IMG/VR virus record: IMGVR_UViG_3300021425_000247
Coordinates: 1 to 20,068 of that record
Length of the DNA stretch: 20,068 nucleotides
DNA from: a virus
Reading direction: 5' to 3' (one strand)
This document shows, in pieces, positions 1,958 to 17,036 of this stretch. Both the position numbers and the translations under genes were made by a program. Below the pieces are notes generated by a model. The model was given only the letters and a program-made list of their open reading frames with translations. It searched no databases and had not been told where the DNA came from. Position 1 is the stretch's first letter; each line of letters starts with the position of its first letter.

Positions 1958-2701
1958 CTATCCTCCTATTACGGTATAAGTGTCTGTTCCCTCTGGGAGA
2001 ATCTCTAGCCAGTCATTAGCTGATACTGTAGCTGATAATCCTGTCAAAGTAGCTGTGCCTGCGAAGCCTATAGCTCCTGCACCTTTCTGAATAAGTTTAC
2101 AACTGAATGCGTCTTTAAGTCCTGTGTCTACAGTAACTGTAATAGCACCTGCGTTATTGCAGTAGATTATTGACTTATCGTCATTGTCTGTAAGTGTGAT
2201 CGATGTAGTAAGGTCTGTTCTGTAAGTTACAGATGTGTCTCTCTTTTTCCACACTGCTGCTCCAGTAGAAGCATCTGTGCAGTCATAGATATTTCCTGCT
2301 ACGTTATCGAACCAAGTAGAGCCTACTGAATAGGATAGTGTCTCGTCGTCATTAACTGTAGGTGCGATGATTGCGTTCTTGTTGATCAGTGACAAGAAAG
2401 TTGCTACTGTAAATTCACCATTGAACTTGTATAATGCGTCTGCATCTAAAGTGATCGCACAGTGAGCTCCTGTTCCTCTAAGTACAGGCTCCCTTATGTC
2501 TACGAACTGGGTAGTACCTACTTTAATAAAAGTAACTTGACCTGCACCTGCTTGTGTGGCCTCACATGTGAAGCCTTCTAAGATAGTGTCAGGACAAGAT
2601 ACTGTGACTGCTGTGGCTGCTGAGAACCTTAAGAGTAGGCCATCGTCGGAGTCTAGCAGTGTGTATGAAGTGTCTGGTATATTTTTGACTGTAATGGCCA
2701 T
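1958..2701 (-). CDS. Tail fibre protein, short paralogue of the downstream fibre
   Basis: This 247-residue protein is a structural fibre component. Residues 8-98 closely match the N-terminal domain of the next gene (shared SYTLL, DDGLLLRF, FVD, ALYKFNGEF), and residues 112-151 carry the same APT...YSVGSTWFD...IYDC...AAVW fibre segment. The C-terminal part (about 165-247) repeats the first domain's pattern: LTDNDD, AGAITVTV, FSCKLIQKGAGA. It lacks the KLxxIEAxATADQ shaft of its paralogue. ATG 2701 has a TAGGAG site at good spacing. The stop at 1958-1960 lies next to the ATG of the paralogue. It could be the baseplate-proximal fibre or an adaptor on which the longer fibre sits; the sequence does not decide between these. 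Confidence 0.8.
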   Translation of the reverse strand: MAITVKNIPDTSYTLLDSDDGLLLRFSAATAVTVSCPDTILEGFTCEATQAGAGQVTFIKVGTTQFVDIREPVLRGTGAHCAITLDADALYKFNGEFTVATFLSLINKNAIIAPTVNDDETLSYSVGSTWFDNVAGNIYDCTDASTGAAVWKKRDTSVTYRTDLTTSITLTDNDDKSIIYCNNAGAITVTVDTGLKDAFSCKLIQKGAGAIGFAGTATLTGLSATVSANDWLEILPEGTDTYTVIGG

Positions 2702-7799: not shown

Positions 7800-9626
7800 T
7801 TAGGGTCTAGCGTTCGTGAACTTTTTATTCACTTCCTGACCTGTAACTGGATCGTTTACTTCTATGTAGTTGTGTACAACATTAGTACTGTGGTCTGAGG
7901 CAAAGCCTTCGCCTCTGGCTACTCTAGCTTTTCTGTTCTGCTCCATTACAGCAGTAAACTTGTCTGCCTCGTCGTGCTTTCCTAGCCTACGTAAGTTAGC
8001 TAGTCTAGTCTGGTGGTGCTTCATAGTCTCTGACTCTGACTTCCTGCCTTCTAGTTCTGCCTTCTTTCGTCCGAATAAGTCAAGAGCGTCTATAAGGCCG
8101 TGTACTGCCTTATTTATCCAGCCTATCTTCATAAGAAGCTTTCCTATTCCCCATCCTACAGCAAATGCAGCAGCTAGTTTTCCCAGTACTAATAGTATTC
8201 CTGTTAGTCCTGTTGCTCCTAATGCTCCTGCTAGAGTTCCTATCAGGGGAAGTAAAACGCCTACTCCTGCAACTAGTTTACCTATCCCTGCGAACAGTAA
8301 CGCAACTCCTGTAGTTATAGCTACAATTGCTGCTCCCCAAGCTATGAATTTTTGGACTGTCTCGTTGGCTATGAATCCTACGAATTTCTGTATGAGAGGC
8401 AGTAGCTCAGATAGCATAGTGGCTAGAGACATGCCTATCTTAAACATTGATTTCAAGGCTACTATCAGTGTCTTTATTGCGTCTTTAGCTTTCTCAGGAT
8501 TGTTCTTGAAGTCGTCGAATATGTCTGCAATGAAGAATAGTGCATCTTGAAAAGCTTCAGACAACTCGTCTAGAACAGGGTTCATGATAGACATTAGAGA
8601 GTTTGATATGTTTTCAAATACAGGAGTTATTCCTTTAAGGAAGGGAGCTAACTTAGATCCGAACTTTCCGAAAAACTCTCTAGTTACAGTATCTATAGAG
8701 GTGGTCATATCCTTAAAGAATACAGAGAAGCTCATGGCTCCTTTTTGTGCTTCTTTGGAGATAGCTGAGATTCTTTTGTTCTTTGCTATGATCTGGTCGT
8801 ATGACATTCCCAAAACGTTCATCTTCTGAGCAATGCCTGTAAGCATTCTATTACCTTCTTGTCCGAAGATCTTATCGAAGGCACTGGCAGCTTCTGGGGA
8901 GAATACTCCATCCTTCATCATCCTAGCACCAGCATTCATGATCCTAGCCAGTTGTTTCTCTGGCTTAAGCTTCTGTAGTTCGGCTGATGCTATACCTAGA
9001 GAAGAAAGACCTTCTTGTAGATTTAGTTCGACAAATCCTCCAGCCTCTCCTCCTAGCTTATTATTTAACTCTTCTACCAGCGAGTTGACGTGTTCAAATG
9101 TAAAGCCAAGAGCTTTGGCTTCCATCTCTAGAGCTCTCATGTCATTGAACGCAAAACCTGTGGCTTTTGATAGGAGCATCATTTCAGTGGTAGATGCATT
9201 TATCTTGCCTGCCAAGAACGTAAATGCTGTGAAGAATCCTGTAGGTACTACTAGTAGTTTGGCTATGCCAGACAACGCGAAAGATAATAATCCTATACCT
9301 ACTCGAACTTGAGCTATCTTATCAGACCAAAATCCAAATACTTTGGCGGTCCTCTTGGCTCCCTTTTCTTGCTTCTTCTGGTTCTTTATTGCCTGTTCTT
9401 GTCCATTGATGTACTTCTTCTGGGTAATGTTCTGTACCTTAAGGCCCTTACCCATAGTCCCGAAATTCTTCTTAGCAGCTTTACCTAGATCTCCTAATTG
9501 TTCTACAATATGCTCTAGTGTGTCTGCTATTTCTTCTAATTGCGCTTGGAACTTATTTAGTACCTTAGTGGGTACTTTAACGGTTATCGGGGCCGTTAGG
9601 GATGCTACTTGGATGTTCTGTGACAT
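7800..9626 (-). CDS. Tail tape measure protein
   Basis: This 608-residue protein sets tail length and lies inside the tube before ejection. It follows the tail chaperones and precedes the hub genes, the standard place. Residues about 22-100 are helical and Lys/Gln-rich; a hydrophobic stretch occupies about 111-140. A charged helical middle follows. Residues about 424-504 form a long run of hydrophobic, Gly/Ala-rich segments that could cross a membrane, as is typical for tape measures. The C-terminus is basic and helical (KSESETMKHHQTRLANLRRLG) and ends in a short beta-like tail (NVVHNYIEVNDPVTG). At about 1.5 angstrom per residue, the length would predict a rather short tail of some 90 nm; this is only an estimate from the family rule. 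ATG 9626 has a GGAGGCCTTAA site. Confidence 0.88.
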   Translation of the reverse strand: MSQNIQVASLTAPITVKVPTKVLNKFQAQLEEIADTLEHIVEQLGDLGKAAKKNFGTMGKGLKVQNITQKKYINGQEQAIKNQKKQEKGAKRTAKVFGFWSDKIAQVRVGIGLLSFALSGIAKLLVVPTGFFTAFTFLAGKINASTTEMMLLSKATGFAFNDMRALEMEAKALGFTFEHVNSLVEELNNKLGGEAGGFVELNLQEGLSSLGIASAELQKLKPEKQLARIMNAGARMMKDGVFSPEAASAFDKIFGQEGNRMLTGIAQKMNVLGMSYDQIIAKNKRISAISKEAQKGAMSFSVFFKDMTTSIDTVTREFFGKFGSKLAPFLKGITPVFENISNSLMSIMNPVLDELSEAFQDALFFIADIFDDFKNNPEKAKDAIKTLIVALKSMFKIGMSLATMLSELLPLIQKFVGFIANETVQKFIAWGAAIVAITTGVALLFAGIGKLVAGVGVLLPLIGTLAGALGATGLTGILLVLGKLAAAFAVGWGIGKLLMKIGWINKAVHGLIDALDLFGRKKAELEGRKSESETMKHHQTRLANLRRLGKHDEADKFTAVMEQNRKARVARGEGFASDHSTNVVHNYIEVNDPVTGQEVNKKFTNARP

Positions 9627-9642: not shown

Positions 9643-10038
9643 TTATACTATTAATGGCTTATCCAGTCTGTACAGGAATATAGTAAGGTCAGAGTACACT
9701 GTGTACTCTCTGGTTGCTGGGAACCTGCTGTCACTTCTAGGCAGATAATACAGAGTGTATGAATTACTGCTAAGTATACTCCTAGAAGTACTACCTTTTC
9801 CTACTAGAACGAAAATACCTTGAGGCCCTTCTTCTTCTAAGAAAGGTAAAGTTATGGGAGCCCCTTGGACTAACTTAGCTCCCTCTATGAGAGGGTTTGA
9901 GTCTATGTCGTAGATGCTCATGTAGAATCGTTGGAATTTAGACACCCATTTGAGTGTTATAGTGTACTCCCTTCCGTCCCCGTCGAGTTCTACAATTTGG
10001 GAGGAAATAGGGTCTTTTGGTATGGATATCTTAATCAA
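9643..10038 (-). CDS. Baseplate plug-like protein (Pam3 gp18-type, DUF6983-like)
   Basis: This 131-residue protein resembles the plug family of small contractile tails: MIKISIPK start, a strand pair EYTITLKWVSKFQRFYMSIYD, the turn DSNPLIEGAKLVQGAPI and a C-terminal TLYYLPRSD strand. In cyanophage Pam3 the family closes the tube at the baseplate. The match is from memory of the pattern and needs a profile search. The start is TTG at 10038, with AAGGAG six bases upstream and no better start between it and the chaperone stop at 10049. In phages I know, plug genes usually lie after the tape measure next to the hub; here the gene lies before it, which is unusual. It could instead be another tube-end protein. 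Confidence 0.55.
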   Translation of the reverse strand: MIKISIPKDPISSQIVELDGDGREYTITLKWVSKFQRFYMSIYDIDSNPLIEGAKLVQGAPITLPFLEEEGPQGIFVLVGKGSTSRSILSSNSYTLYYLPRSDSRFPATREYTVYSDLTIFLYRLDKPLIV

Positions 10039-10048
10039 AGTCCACTCC

Positions 10049-10857
10049 TTAATGTTGTGAGGCTCTGCTTTCTGCTTGTGCCTTCAGTTCGTCTCTCCTT
10101 CCTAACTCGTCTACAACGTCAAGAACTTCTATCATACTGATAGCTTCTTCCCAAGACCATTCGTATGCTATCTCTATGTAAGTTCCTAACTTGGCCTTAC
10201 ACAGTCTTAGTATTTGGGGATAGGTCCCGTTAATAGCCTTAACTGCTATCTCTAGATCATCCTCTTCTTCTGGTGACTGCTGTGCGTCTGACTTCAAGTC
10301 CCAGAAGTCTTCCATTCCTAGATCTGCTATCTGAGACTTGAGTTCCTCTTCTGAGGATTTTAGCTTGTTTCTTCGGTTGCCTTTTCCATCAAGGACTTCT
10401 TCATTGGCACTTTCTTTATTCTCTTCGGGGTCGGTAACTCTTGGGCTGTATCTTCCCCTTTTCCGAAAAAATCTGGAAAATTATACTGGAATACTTGCCA
10501 TATTACCTGAAGACACTCGGACACACTGTCAAAGTTGTTAGGATCTAGGATGGAGTATTCTGCTGTATCTTCGTCGTAGAATTCAGTCTGGTACAATAGA
10601 TCTTTGCAGACATTTGTTATTAACTTCTTATCTAGGTTGGAGAACATTTTTGATATGTCTGTCACATCTACTTCTTGATCTTCCTGTCCCTCTTCTTTGC
10701 CTGTATTGAAGTCGTCTACCAGAGAGATTATGGTAGGTAAGTATGTAAGCATTACTTCATTTGCCTCTAGAAAACCTAGAGCTGTGCTTCTAAATTTAGA
10801 TCCTTCAATCTCAAAAATTAAAGGCTTTCTTTGTGTTCTCTTTTTCATCTTTTCCAT
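10049..10857 (-). CDS. Tail assembly chaperone fusion (GT-type) made by -1 frameshift
   Basis: A ribosome that slips back one base on the T-TTT-TTC run at 10471-10465 would leave the frame of the first chaperone after residue 131 and read on without a stop to 10049, giving a 269-residue fusion when counted from ATG 10857. The second part (from CGG at 10465) includes acidic SPEEEDDLE, then a helical region ending in YEWSWEEAISMIEVLDVVDELGR, which resembles the second part of chaperone pairs in other contractile tails. The second frame has an ATG at 10315, but only GGA directly against it, so independent initiation looks poor. In lambda, G and GT are made by the same kind of slip and both are needed to load tube protein on the tape measure. 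Gene position, directly upstream of the plug and tape measure, fits. Confidence 0.8.
10360..10857 (-). CDS. Tail assembly chaperone, unshifted form (G-type)
   Basis: This 165-residue product (162 if the second ATG is used) is the expected abundant chaperone of tail assembly. It begins with a basic N-terminus (MKKRTQRKPLIFEIEG), has a helical middle with an acidic patch (KEEGQEDQEVD) and ends in a region containing WQVFQYNFPDFFGKGE; the NFPDFF text is like chaperones of other myoviruses. The frameshift site lies at the FF codons of this motif. The ribosome site AAAGGA touches ATG 10857 but stands nine bases before the second ATG at 10848, so the latter may be the true start. The stop is TAA at 10362-10360. 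An intrinsic terminator lies between this gene and the tube gene. Confidence 0.82.
   Translation of the reverse strand: MEKMKKRTQRKPLIFEIEGSKFRSTALGFLEANEVMLTYLPTIISLVDDFNTGKEEGQEDQEVDVTDISKMFSNLDKKLITNVCKDLLYQTEFYDEDTAEYSILDPNNFDSVSECLQVIWQVFQYNFPDFFGKGEDTAQELPTPKRIKKVPMKKSLMEKATEETS
10465..10471 (-). promoter_or_regulatory. Programmed -1 ribosomal frameshift heptamer T TTT TTC
   Basis: The minus strand reads GAT TTT TTC GGA in the chaperone frame, so the heptamer T TTT TTC fits the X XXY YYZ rule and both tRNAs can re-pair in the -1 frame. The -1 frame has a stop (TAA) at 10483-10481, only ten bases before the heptamer, and is then open to 10049. A slip must therefore occur between 10482 and the stop of the first frame at 10362, and this is the only clear heptamer there. 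A downstream GGGG/CCCC pairing is possible but weak. Confidence 0.78.
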
Positions 10858-10863
10858 TCCTTT

Positions 10864-10889
10864 AAAAAATAGGCCCCATTTCTGGGGCC
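10864..10889 (-). terminator. Intrinsic terminator between tube and chaperone genes
   Basis: Read on the minus strand, a GGCCCC stem (10889-10884), a six-base AGAAAT loop and a GGGGCC stem (10877-10872) are followed by TA and six Ts (10869-10864). This is a canonical rho-independent terminator between the tube gene stop at 10897 and the chaperone start at 10857. The genes beyond it share orientation and tight spacing, so it probably acts as a leaky terminator that lowers expression of chaperones, tape measure and baseplate relative to sheath and tube. Confidence 0.82.
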
Positions 10890-10896
10890 GTTAGTC

Positions 10897-11364
10897 TTAG
10901 ATACCGTCTACGATACCTTCGATGAAGCCTTTTCCTGCGCCTGTAATAGCGTATCGGATTTTGGCAGCGTCGATAACCCATTCTCTCGTAGATATCTCTT
11001 TACCGAAAGCAGATTCAGGCATGCCCTCTATCCAACACTCTGTGCCTAGATAGAAAGTTCCTTCACTGTTCTGGTCTCGAATTGCTACGGGGAATGTCAG
11101 ATTTCCTGTATTGTCGAATACGTCAGCAGATAATAGGCCACTTAGTACTCCATTCGCTCTTGAAGTTTGATTCAAGGTAAATACGAATCTACCAGTATCT
11201 GCTACATTGAATGATCTTGCTACTTCTCCATCGACAGAAGTGTACTTTACGAACTTTGCTTCGTCTAGGGATACTGTAAGCATATCTGAGTCTCCGAATC
11301 CAGTAATCTGGACTCCTGCTACAGAAATGATCATACGTTTAGGTGAATATGTTGCTGTGCTCAT
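10897..11364 (-). CDS. Tail tube protein, DUF3277-like
   Basis: This 155-residue protein follows the sheath gene and is the expected inner tube. It has the tube-like plan of beta strands with a long loop: YSPKRMIISVAGVQITGFGDSDMLTVS at the start, then an FVKYTSVDGEVARSFN segment (residues about 34-52) typical of the DUF3277-like group, FVFTLNQTS, and a FPVAIRDQNSEGTFY strand near the middle. The end is GKGFIEGIVDGI. ATG 11364 has a TAGGGAGAAC site ten bases after the sheath gene. Hundreds of copies per virion are needed, which agrees with the terminator placed after this gene. Confidence 0.82.
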   Translation of the reverse strand: MSTATYSPKRMIISVAGVQITGFGDSDMLTVSLDEAKFVKYTSVDGEVARSFNVADTGRFVFTLNQTSRANGVLSGLLSADVFDNTGNLTFPVAIRDQNSEGTFYLGTECWIEGMPESAFGKEISTREWVIDAAKIRYAITGAGKGFIEGIVDGI

Positions 11365-15936: not shown

Positions 15937-16488
15937 TTACTTGGAAGCTTTTAATTCTGCTTCGATTTCTAGTCTGGCTTGCTTAGAAGCAACGTGTGGT
16001 CTAAGACCTTTTTCTTTGATAAGTTCTGCACGACGCTTCAAGATCATACCTGACTTATCTAGCTTCTCGCCATCATCTCCGCTTTCGCCCTTGTTTTTAA
16101 GGAGCTCAACATTGCTTTCAATGTTCTGGAGTTTCTCTAGCTGTTTAACTAATTCTGTGTACTCTTCTTCTTCTAAAGCATCTTTACACTTAACTAGAAC
16201 TGTTGCGAACTTTTCAGCATCGTCAGCTTTGAGGTCTTTAGACTTCTCAACTAACTCACTTCTTTCTTTAGCCTTATTAGCTTTTTCAACTTCTTCTAGT
16301 TTAGCGTCTAAATCAGCTTTAGCTTTTTCAACTTCTTCTAGTTTAGTAGCCTGATCAGCTTTAGCTTTTTCGACTTCTTCTAGTCTAGTAGCGTCATCAG
16401 CTAGTTTCTTCTCTAGTTCTGCTACTTTAGCTTCTGATGCAGCTTGGGCTTTTAGAATTTCTTCTAGTTTATTTTCATCAAGGGACAT
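15937..16488 (-). CDS. Internal-start scaffold protein (Nu3-like arrangement)
   Basis: ATG 16488, codon 59 of the longer frame, follows AAGGAAG (16500-16494) with five bases between, a strong ribosome site that would be wasted inside a gene. The product would be 183 residues: MSLDENKLEEILKAQ at the start, then the coiled coil with its three LEEVEKAKAD units and the acidic-basic end. The pattern is like lambda C/Nu3, where scaffold is made from an in-frame start inside the protease gene. Here the catalytic part lies in a separate frame upstream. Inferred from the site only; no experiment known to me. Confidence 0.6.
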   Translation of the reverse strand: MSLDENKLEEILKAQAASEAKVAELEKKLADDATRLEEVEKAKADQATKLEEVEKAKADLDAKLEEVEKANKAKERSELVEKSKDLKADDAEKFATVLVKCKDALEEEEYTELVKQLEKLQNIESNVELLKNKGESGDDGEKLDKSGMILKRRAELIKEKGLRPHVASKQARLEIEAELKASK

Positions 16489-16662
16489 ATAGTCTTCCTT
16501 TTTGTTATGTGGTTTCTCTGCCGGAGCAGTGGTTTCTCTGCGCTTGAGGACAAGCGTCTCGTCATGCTCTATAGCACCGTGGTCTACAAGTGCTACATGG
16601 CATTTCTTCTGACTAAAGTCCAGATTAGTTAATCTGCGCTTTGCCTTTCTTTCGTCAGACAT
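15937..16662 (-). CDS. XkdF-like C-terminal segment joined to coiled-coil scaffold
   Basis: This 241-residue protein has two parts. Residues 1-44 read KRRLTNLDFSQKKCHVALVDHGA, close to the end region of XkdF-type proteases (KR-L-x-L-x-x-x-x-SLVDxGA). Residues 60-241 are a charged helical scaffold with three 14-residue repeats LEEVEKAKAD (about 93-135) and a final basic end like other scaffolds. ATG 16662 shares its A with the protease stop (TAATG) and has GGAGG upstream, so it is coupled to the protease. The ATG at codon 59 (16488) has its own strong site, so a shorter scaffold is likely made too. The protein probably fills the prohead and is cut by the protease. Confidence 0.82.
   Translation of the reverse strand: MSDERKAKRRLTNLDFSQKKCHVALVDHGAIEHDETLVLKRRETTAPAEKPHNKKEDYMSLDENKLEEILKAQAASEAKVAELEKKLADDATRLEEVEKAKADQATKLEEVEKAKADLDAKLEEVEKANKAKERSELVEKSKDLKADDAEKFATVLVKCKDALEEEEYTELVKQLEKLQNIESNVELLKNKGESGDDGEKLDKSGMILKRRAELIKEKGLRPHVASKQARLEIEAELKASK
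16281..16393 (-). repeat. Three tandem 42-bp repeats coding for the scaffold coiled coil
   Basis: The plus strand shows cttttt(c)aacttcttctag starting at 16281, 16323 and 16365, an exact 42-base period with the third unit differing by gac for aac and tcta for ttta. They encode LEEVEKAKAD plus four variable residues, two heptads each. The near-identity at DNA level points to recent expansion. Change by slippage would alter scaffold length in steps of 14 residues. Confidence 0.9.
16494..16500 (-). promoter_or_regulatory. Internal ribosome binding site of the scaffold
   Basis: AAGGAAG on the minus strand stands five bases upstream of ATG 16488, inside the longer frame. It matches the 16S anti-Shine-Dalgarno core nearly as well as the strongest sites in the window and decides in favour of a second start there. 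Confidence 0.65.
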
Positions 16663-17036
16663 TATATGTCCTCCGTTTCAGCTAGAGCTCCGATAGAGAA
16701 TCCATTAAATTCTCCACGCTTGACAGCATCTAGTAGTTTTGTAGATTTACACTTAAGTGTGAGCATCCAAGTTCCTTCGGGTAGCTCTGTACCGTTGAAT
16801 TCTGTATTCTTCTGTAACACGTAACACTCAGTAAATTCAGCACTATCTGGGCTCAATTGAAACTCATGTTGTAGGTTAGGTTGCATACAGTTCTTAGAAA
16901 AGTTCCTGCAGGCCTTGAATATTTCTTCTTTGGATATGACATCACCGTGAGCATCTACGTAAGGTTCTGGTATTAGAGCAGGAGCTGTTATCTCCATACG
17001 TCCGTAGTCAGCCTTGGCTATGAATTCTATATTCAT
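16662..17036 (-). CDS. Prohead protease, XkdF-type catalytic domain
   Basis: This 124-residue protein matches the XkdF family: YVDAHGDVISKEEIFKACRNF (about 26-46), a beta strand with LQHEF, the ELPEGTWMLTLKCKS strand and the end VKRGEFNGFSIGA. By analogy to other prohead proteases, His57 in LQHEF and Ser114 in GFSIG are the best candidates for the catalytic pair; this is inference from position. The protein ends seven residues after the GFSIGA motif, while XkdF-like proteins run on into a KR-L...LVDxGA segment, which here is the start of the next gene. ATG 17036 overlaps the stop of the previous gene (ATGA). The site AAGGACTACA precedes it. It cuts scaffold and capsid during maturation. Confidence 0.78.
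   Translation of the reverse strand: MNIEFIAKADYGRMEITAPALIPEPYVDAHGDVISKEEIFKACRNFSKNCMQPNLQHEFQLSPDSAEFTECYVLQKNTEFNGTELPEGTWMLTLKCKSTKLLDAVKRGEFNGFSIGALAETEDI

Follow-up and report, generated by a model that had tools for sequence, protein, structure and literature searches.

The question raised by this locus is whether an uncultured phage uses a single start to produce two forms of its tail assembly chaperone, the longer of them through a backward slip of the ribosome into a second reading frame. The window, i.e., the whole stretch of DNA that was analysed, is IMG/VR record IMGVR_UViG_3300021425_000247 of an uncultured virus with a length of 20,068 bases. A chaperone pair joined by a -1 frameshift had been proposed in the first-pass annotation, and this is clearly the best reading, supported by the frames, the register of the slip site, its conservation, and the homology of the second half to T regions. 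The chaperone is thus very probably made in two forms via a programmed -1 slip, predicted at the heptamer T TTT TTC.

Genomic setting

The head and contractile-tail genes of the window were located on the minus strand by means of the open reading frame list and profile searches. They include a tail sheath of the DUF3383 type (phrog_205, E=4.9e-87) and a tube gene (10897-11364); a Dit-like protein and baseplate proteins are also encoded. The tape measure candidate (7800-9626, minus strand, 608 aa) was assigned by its position; its best match was phrog_3654, a family of unknown function, and a weak match to the tape measure family phrog_1272 was obtained (E=0.002). The chaperone pair is located between the tube and tape measure genes. 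One gene intervenes before the latter, a Pam3 gp18-like baseplate plug gene (9643-10038, minus strand; PF22479, E=7.7e-16), which directly adjoins the T frame. This placement was otherwise found only in the nearest relative, locus L014, a separate IMG/VR contig with 72% DNA identity and 80% amino acid identity in the sheath. There, the same plug protein follows directly after T (after L014 position 9727), its reading frame being open at the contig end. About 60 other loci were found to carry the plug gene as well, 2-5 kb further along, and in the annotated ones it follows the tape measure and Dit genes. The plug gene position is a clade-specific gene move of the window and L014.

Between the tube and chaperone genes, a strong terminator-like hairpin (GGCCCC-AGAAAT-GGGGCC plus TATTTTTT; 10872-10889, minus strand; -15.7 kcal/mol, z=-4.5) was observed. 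At the same place, L014 carries a strong hairpin of different sequence (8868-8912, z=-3.9) with no clear T run. The intergenic hairpin may lower chaperone expression relative to the tube. Elsewhere in the window, two adjacent proteins (658-1956 and 1958-2701, minus strand) share a similar N-terminal region (M.IT.K.I..TSYTLL...DGLLLRF) and, as judged from this similarity, are probably duplicated tail-fibre parts; neither had a Pfam match. An XkdF-type prohead protease domain (PF14550, E=4.3e-24) is encoded at 16662-17036 (minus strand), and the stop of this gene overlaps the start of the next, coiled-coil-like gene (15937-16662), which is possibly a scaffold gene.

Reading frames, slip site and second domain

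The short form (G or TAC-N, 162 aa) is encoded at 10360-10848 on the minus strand, and its frame ends at 10360 with the stop TAA 10362-10360, as annotated before. The start had been placed at ATG 10857. ATG 10848 is probably the correct one, since the Shine-Dalgarno sequence AAAGGA (10858-10863, minus strand) lies 9 nt before ATG 10848 and 0 nt before ATG 10857, and since ATG 10848 is aligned with the MKRKTQRKPL of L014. Because of this probable start, the junction peptide of the fusion, formerly given as Phe131-Arg132, becomes Phe128-Arg129. The first half was assigned to Phage_TAC_15 (PF21822, E=3.2e-11) with 44.3 bits, above the gathering cut-off of 22 bits; PF21822 was matched in all 32 sampled tail assembly chaperones (TACs). 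An AlphaFold model of the first half (pLDDT 77) matched annotated phage TACs in BFVD (E=3.6e-6).

The last stop in the -1 frame is TAA 10483-10481, from 10480 on this frame stays open as far as 10049, and the heptamer T TTT TTC is positioned at 10471-10465 (minus strand), 9 bases inside this open frame; all of these coordinates agreed with the first-pass annotation. The -1 frame extension (T, part of TAC-NC; 10049-10465, minus strand) comprises 138 aa, and the predicted length of the GT fusion product is 266 aa. The first frame reads GA(T TTT TTC), and a -1 slip would bring the tRNAs of both the P-site TTT and the A-site TTC to pair with TTT. The heptamer is the sole in-register XXXYYYZ sequence in the overlap of the first and -1 frames (0.11 expected in the 37-codon overlap at the window-wide rate) and the sole in-register heptamer of the T6/A6 type among the 6,286 codons of the window. 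Over its 143 codons, the -1 frame stayed open in none of 2,000 dinucleotide shuffles, and it continues for 102 codons beyond the chaperone stop. The raw length of a -1 extension was rejected as a diagnostic, as long extensions also arise from overlapping neighbour genes in other parts of the window.

No significant RNA structure was detected 3' of the heptamer (10464-10400, z about -0.2). A downstream GGGG/CCCC hairpin with a 6-nt spacer, foldable in L014 as well, was no better than shuffled sequences and was dismissed as a stimulator. By inspection of the sequence, no Shine-Dalgarno-like stimulator was evident upstream. A downstream stimulatory structure is an optional, non-defining trait of G/GT-type pairs, and P2-type slip sites were reported without one (PMC3091744).

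The second half had been described as chaperone-like, and its homology to the T regions of other phages was established with a profile built from the T regions of 66 other phages, the window and L014 being left out. Among 237 six-frame open segments of the window and L014, the -1 product of the window ranked first (E=1.6e-5), followed by that of L014 (1.2e-4), and the next target had an E-value of 0.21. The conserved T core (YPQILRL...EWSWEEAISMIEVLDVVDELGRRD) corresponds to 10061-10222 (minus strand). Direct matches of the second half in Pfam, PHROG or NCBIfam were not obtained, and a Foldseek search against the PDB returned nothing usable for either half. In the AlphaFold model, the second half is all-helical, with an ordered core (pLDDT above 95) following a low-confidence linker.

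At the slip site, L014 retains GATTTTTTCGGAAAAGGGGAAGAT unchanged, together with both frames. From the internal ATG on, the second halves are 64% identical, including the shared core TYPQIL(R/K)LCKAKLG(T/S)Y(I/V)EIA(Y/F)EWSWEEAISM, and substitutions numbered 24, 15 and 42 by -1 codon position (third-position excess, p=4.5e-4). By this pattern of substitutions, the -1 frame is under coding selection from that ATG on. The third-position signal was not significant in the 42-nt stretch before the internal ATG, and in the overlap region neither frame had a third-position bias; the segment just after the slip would therefore be a loosely constrained linker, except for RKRGR. The distance from slip site to T core amounts to 81-82 aa in the window and L014 versus 24-52 aa elsewhere. 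An identical run of 24 nt at the heptamer was not regarded as exceptional, as eight runs of 25-33 nt are shared by the window and L014 elsewhere.

Conservation in relatives and rival explanations

Relatives were retrieved using a four-sequence sheath alignment as query, which yielded 80 IMG/VR loci; an alignment of nine sheath sequences proved too divergent for scanning. Nothing was found by single-protein scans of viral contigs with sheath and TAC, nor when phage records were searched with DNA and the TAC protein. In the alignment of related phages, the heptamer region and the -1 frame proved conserved: the -1 frame runs past the chaperone stop in all 84 related loci with a recognisable chaperone, and no stop occurs between slip site and T end in any of the 68 non-redundant, uncut loci. 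In these 68 loci, the median extension past the chaperone stop was 79 codons in the -1 frame, whereas the +1 frame reached only 3. In most related loci, a slippery site, poly-T or other, is present no more than three codons away from the window's Phe-Phe column. Among 39 representatives chosen at 70% identity, with the site in this same range, the spellings were TTTTTTC (9), TTTTTTT (8), TTTTTTG (4), CCCTTTT (3), GGTTTTT (8), other poly-T variants (5), GGGAAAG (1), and TTTTATG (1).

Members with Phe-Phe at the slip site spelled it T TTT TT[TC] in 17 of 17 cases (70%-identity representatives), versus 5 of 71 pyrimidine-preceded Phe-Phe pairs in other genes of the same phages (Fisher p=4e-14, computed with phylogeny ignored and inflated by shared ancestry). 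As this spelling is constant at the slip site and rare in other genes, the T6 codon bias points to selection on nucleotides and not on amino acids alone.

Relatives that keep both frames without the heptamer had been named in the first-pass annotation as grounds for refutation. Such relatives do occur in the Pakpunavirus-like clade (L003, L008, L015, L017, L020, L024, L030, L035, L055, L060, L073, L075), with GGTTTTT, AGTTTTT, CGTTTTT or TGTTTTT as slip codons. They do not refute the frameshift, because the same codons are occupied by a different poly-T motif, GGTTTTT or one of its variants. A -1 slip at these sites would leave the tRNA of the P-site GTT with an imperfect new pairing. Taken across loci, the comparison suggests that a -1 frameshift chaperone is general in DUF3383-sheath myophages, including the window, Pam3, CR3, PiR and others. 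In the public annotations of Pam3 (L007), CR3 (L009), PiR (L012) and AAM37 (L004), the chaperone is one ordinary CDS, and the -1 extension is missing or a separate hypothetical gene.

The second half might instead be a separate gene, translated from the internal ATG at 10313-10315 (minus strand) or by termination-reinitiation, with an incidental slippery site. This ATG is a weak candidate for the start of a stand-alone product; it lies 45 nt past the chaperone stop and, in agreement with the poor start noted earlier, is not preceded in the window by a Shine-Dalgarno match at usable spacing. L014 retains this ATG and has a further one in frame, two codons upstream, with AAGGAG at 8 nt, and the second half of the Felix O1-like phage JH2 is annotated as its own gene. 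However, 33 of the 68 relatives lack any ATG, GTG or TTG ahead of the T core, and no more than 7 of the 68, L014 included, have a start with a Shine-Dalgarno match there. Together with the -1 frame open from the slip site in 68/68 and the bias of the site codons to T6, this makes two separate genes very unlikely. Since so many relatives are startless before the core and so few have a matched start, fusion appears to be the general rule, and an extra stand-alone product is possible in the clade of the window and L014. A combination of both routes in this clade, with GT at a low level and T initiated separately, would fit the long slip-to-core region, the conserved internal methionine of GM(E/D)DFW and the good Shine-Dalgarno sequence of L014, but not the lack of one in the window, and is considered unlikely. 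That T is both fused and self-initiated there and that the plug gene moved in between, coupling the supply of plug and chaperone, is slightly less probable still.

Slippage of the RNA polymerase on the T6 run, instead of the ribosome, could also give access to the -1 frame, and some relatives have T7. For transcriptional slippage in bacteria, a run of six bases is short, and the CCCTTTT and GGGAAAG of relatives suit tandem tRNA slippage and not homopolymer slippage, which leaves this explanation highly improbable. A homopolymer error in sequencing or assembly, or a decayed gene, might be suspected in an uncultured 20-kb IMG/VR record; as the same T6 and both frames are present in L014, a separate contig of only 72% DNA identity, and the same arrangement occurs in the isolated phages JH2, Pam3, CR3 and PiR, the chance of this is close to negligible.

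Proposed mechanism and known systems

With programmed ribosomal slippage as the preferred reading, most ribosomes would stay in the first frame, terminate at 10360 and release the 162-aa short form (G). On T TTT TTC, a minority would move back by one base, and their further translation in the -1 frame as far as 10049 would give the 266-aa GT with its helical C-terminal T domain, so that both forms would arise from one start. By analogy to lambda, many G and few GT would coat the tape measure protein, T would recruit tube subunits, and G and GT would both leave before the tail is completed. Occurrence and efficiency of slippage at T TTT TTC are predictions, as is the tail assembly role of G and GT here, which is drawn from that analogy.

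The frameshift mechanism itself is a known trick of tailed phages, which the window extends to a distant lineage. A predicted recoding event of an uncultured lineage is hereby placed in a deep family, the DUF3383-sheath myophages, whose slippery sequence varies (TTTTTTC/T/G, CCCTTTT, GGGAAAG, GGTTTTT) at a conserved slip position. Such naturally varied sites lend themselves, as a series, to the question of which slippery sequences can be tolerated. For annotation, the second half belongs in a fused coding sequence and not in a separate gene.

The lambda G/GT heptamer is GGGAAAG. Gene position, shared start and a -1 product that is in the minority and carries a T domain are the same in lambda G/GT (reviewed in PMC5009743), but the lambda tail is non-contractile, and the comparison covers mechanism and gene position. 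The lambda logic in a contractile tail had been pointed out in the first-pass annotation; it is not new, being already known in P2, in Felix O1-like phages and in Adele and the Vandenendeviridae. At the level of mechanism, P2 E/E+E' likewise combines a contractile tail and a T6 -1 slip with no downstream structure found, its heptamer ending in G (TTTTTTG) and that of the window in C (PMC3091744). Felix O1-like phages have been annotated with a -1 shift since at least 2015 (PMC4591319, PMC5543628), and the Adele paper of December 2025 described a -1 shift in 56 Vandenendeviridae alleles and, in 231 Andersonviridae, an identical GTTTTT motif (PMC12846349). The Vandenendeviridae/Andersonviridae group (Adele; the Citrobacter phages Moogle, Mijalis and Michonne; the Felix O1-like JH2, whose TTTTTTC is identical) likewise has a PF21822 chaperone, a shift in the -1 direction, a poly-T site near the 3' end, and an uninterrupted -1 frame. 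The window differs from this group by identities of only about 30% in the sheath and 14-20% in the TAC, a longer linker, a plug gene that separates the pair from the tape measure gene, and a T domain without direct Pfam or PHROG match. The Pam3 chaperone gp15, annotated as a single gene and with 18% TAC identity to the window, has its TTTTTTC aligned in one column with that of the window and likewise keeps the -1 frame open, and the gp18 plug gene of Pam3, unlike that of the window, follows the tape measure gene.
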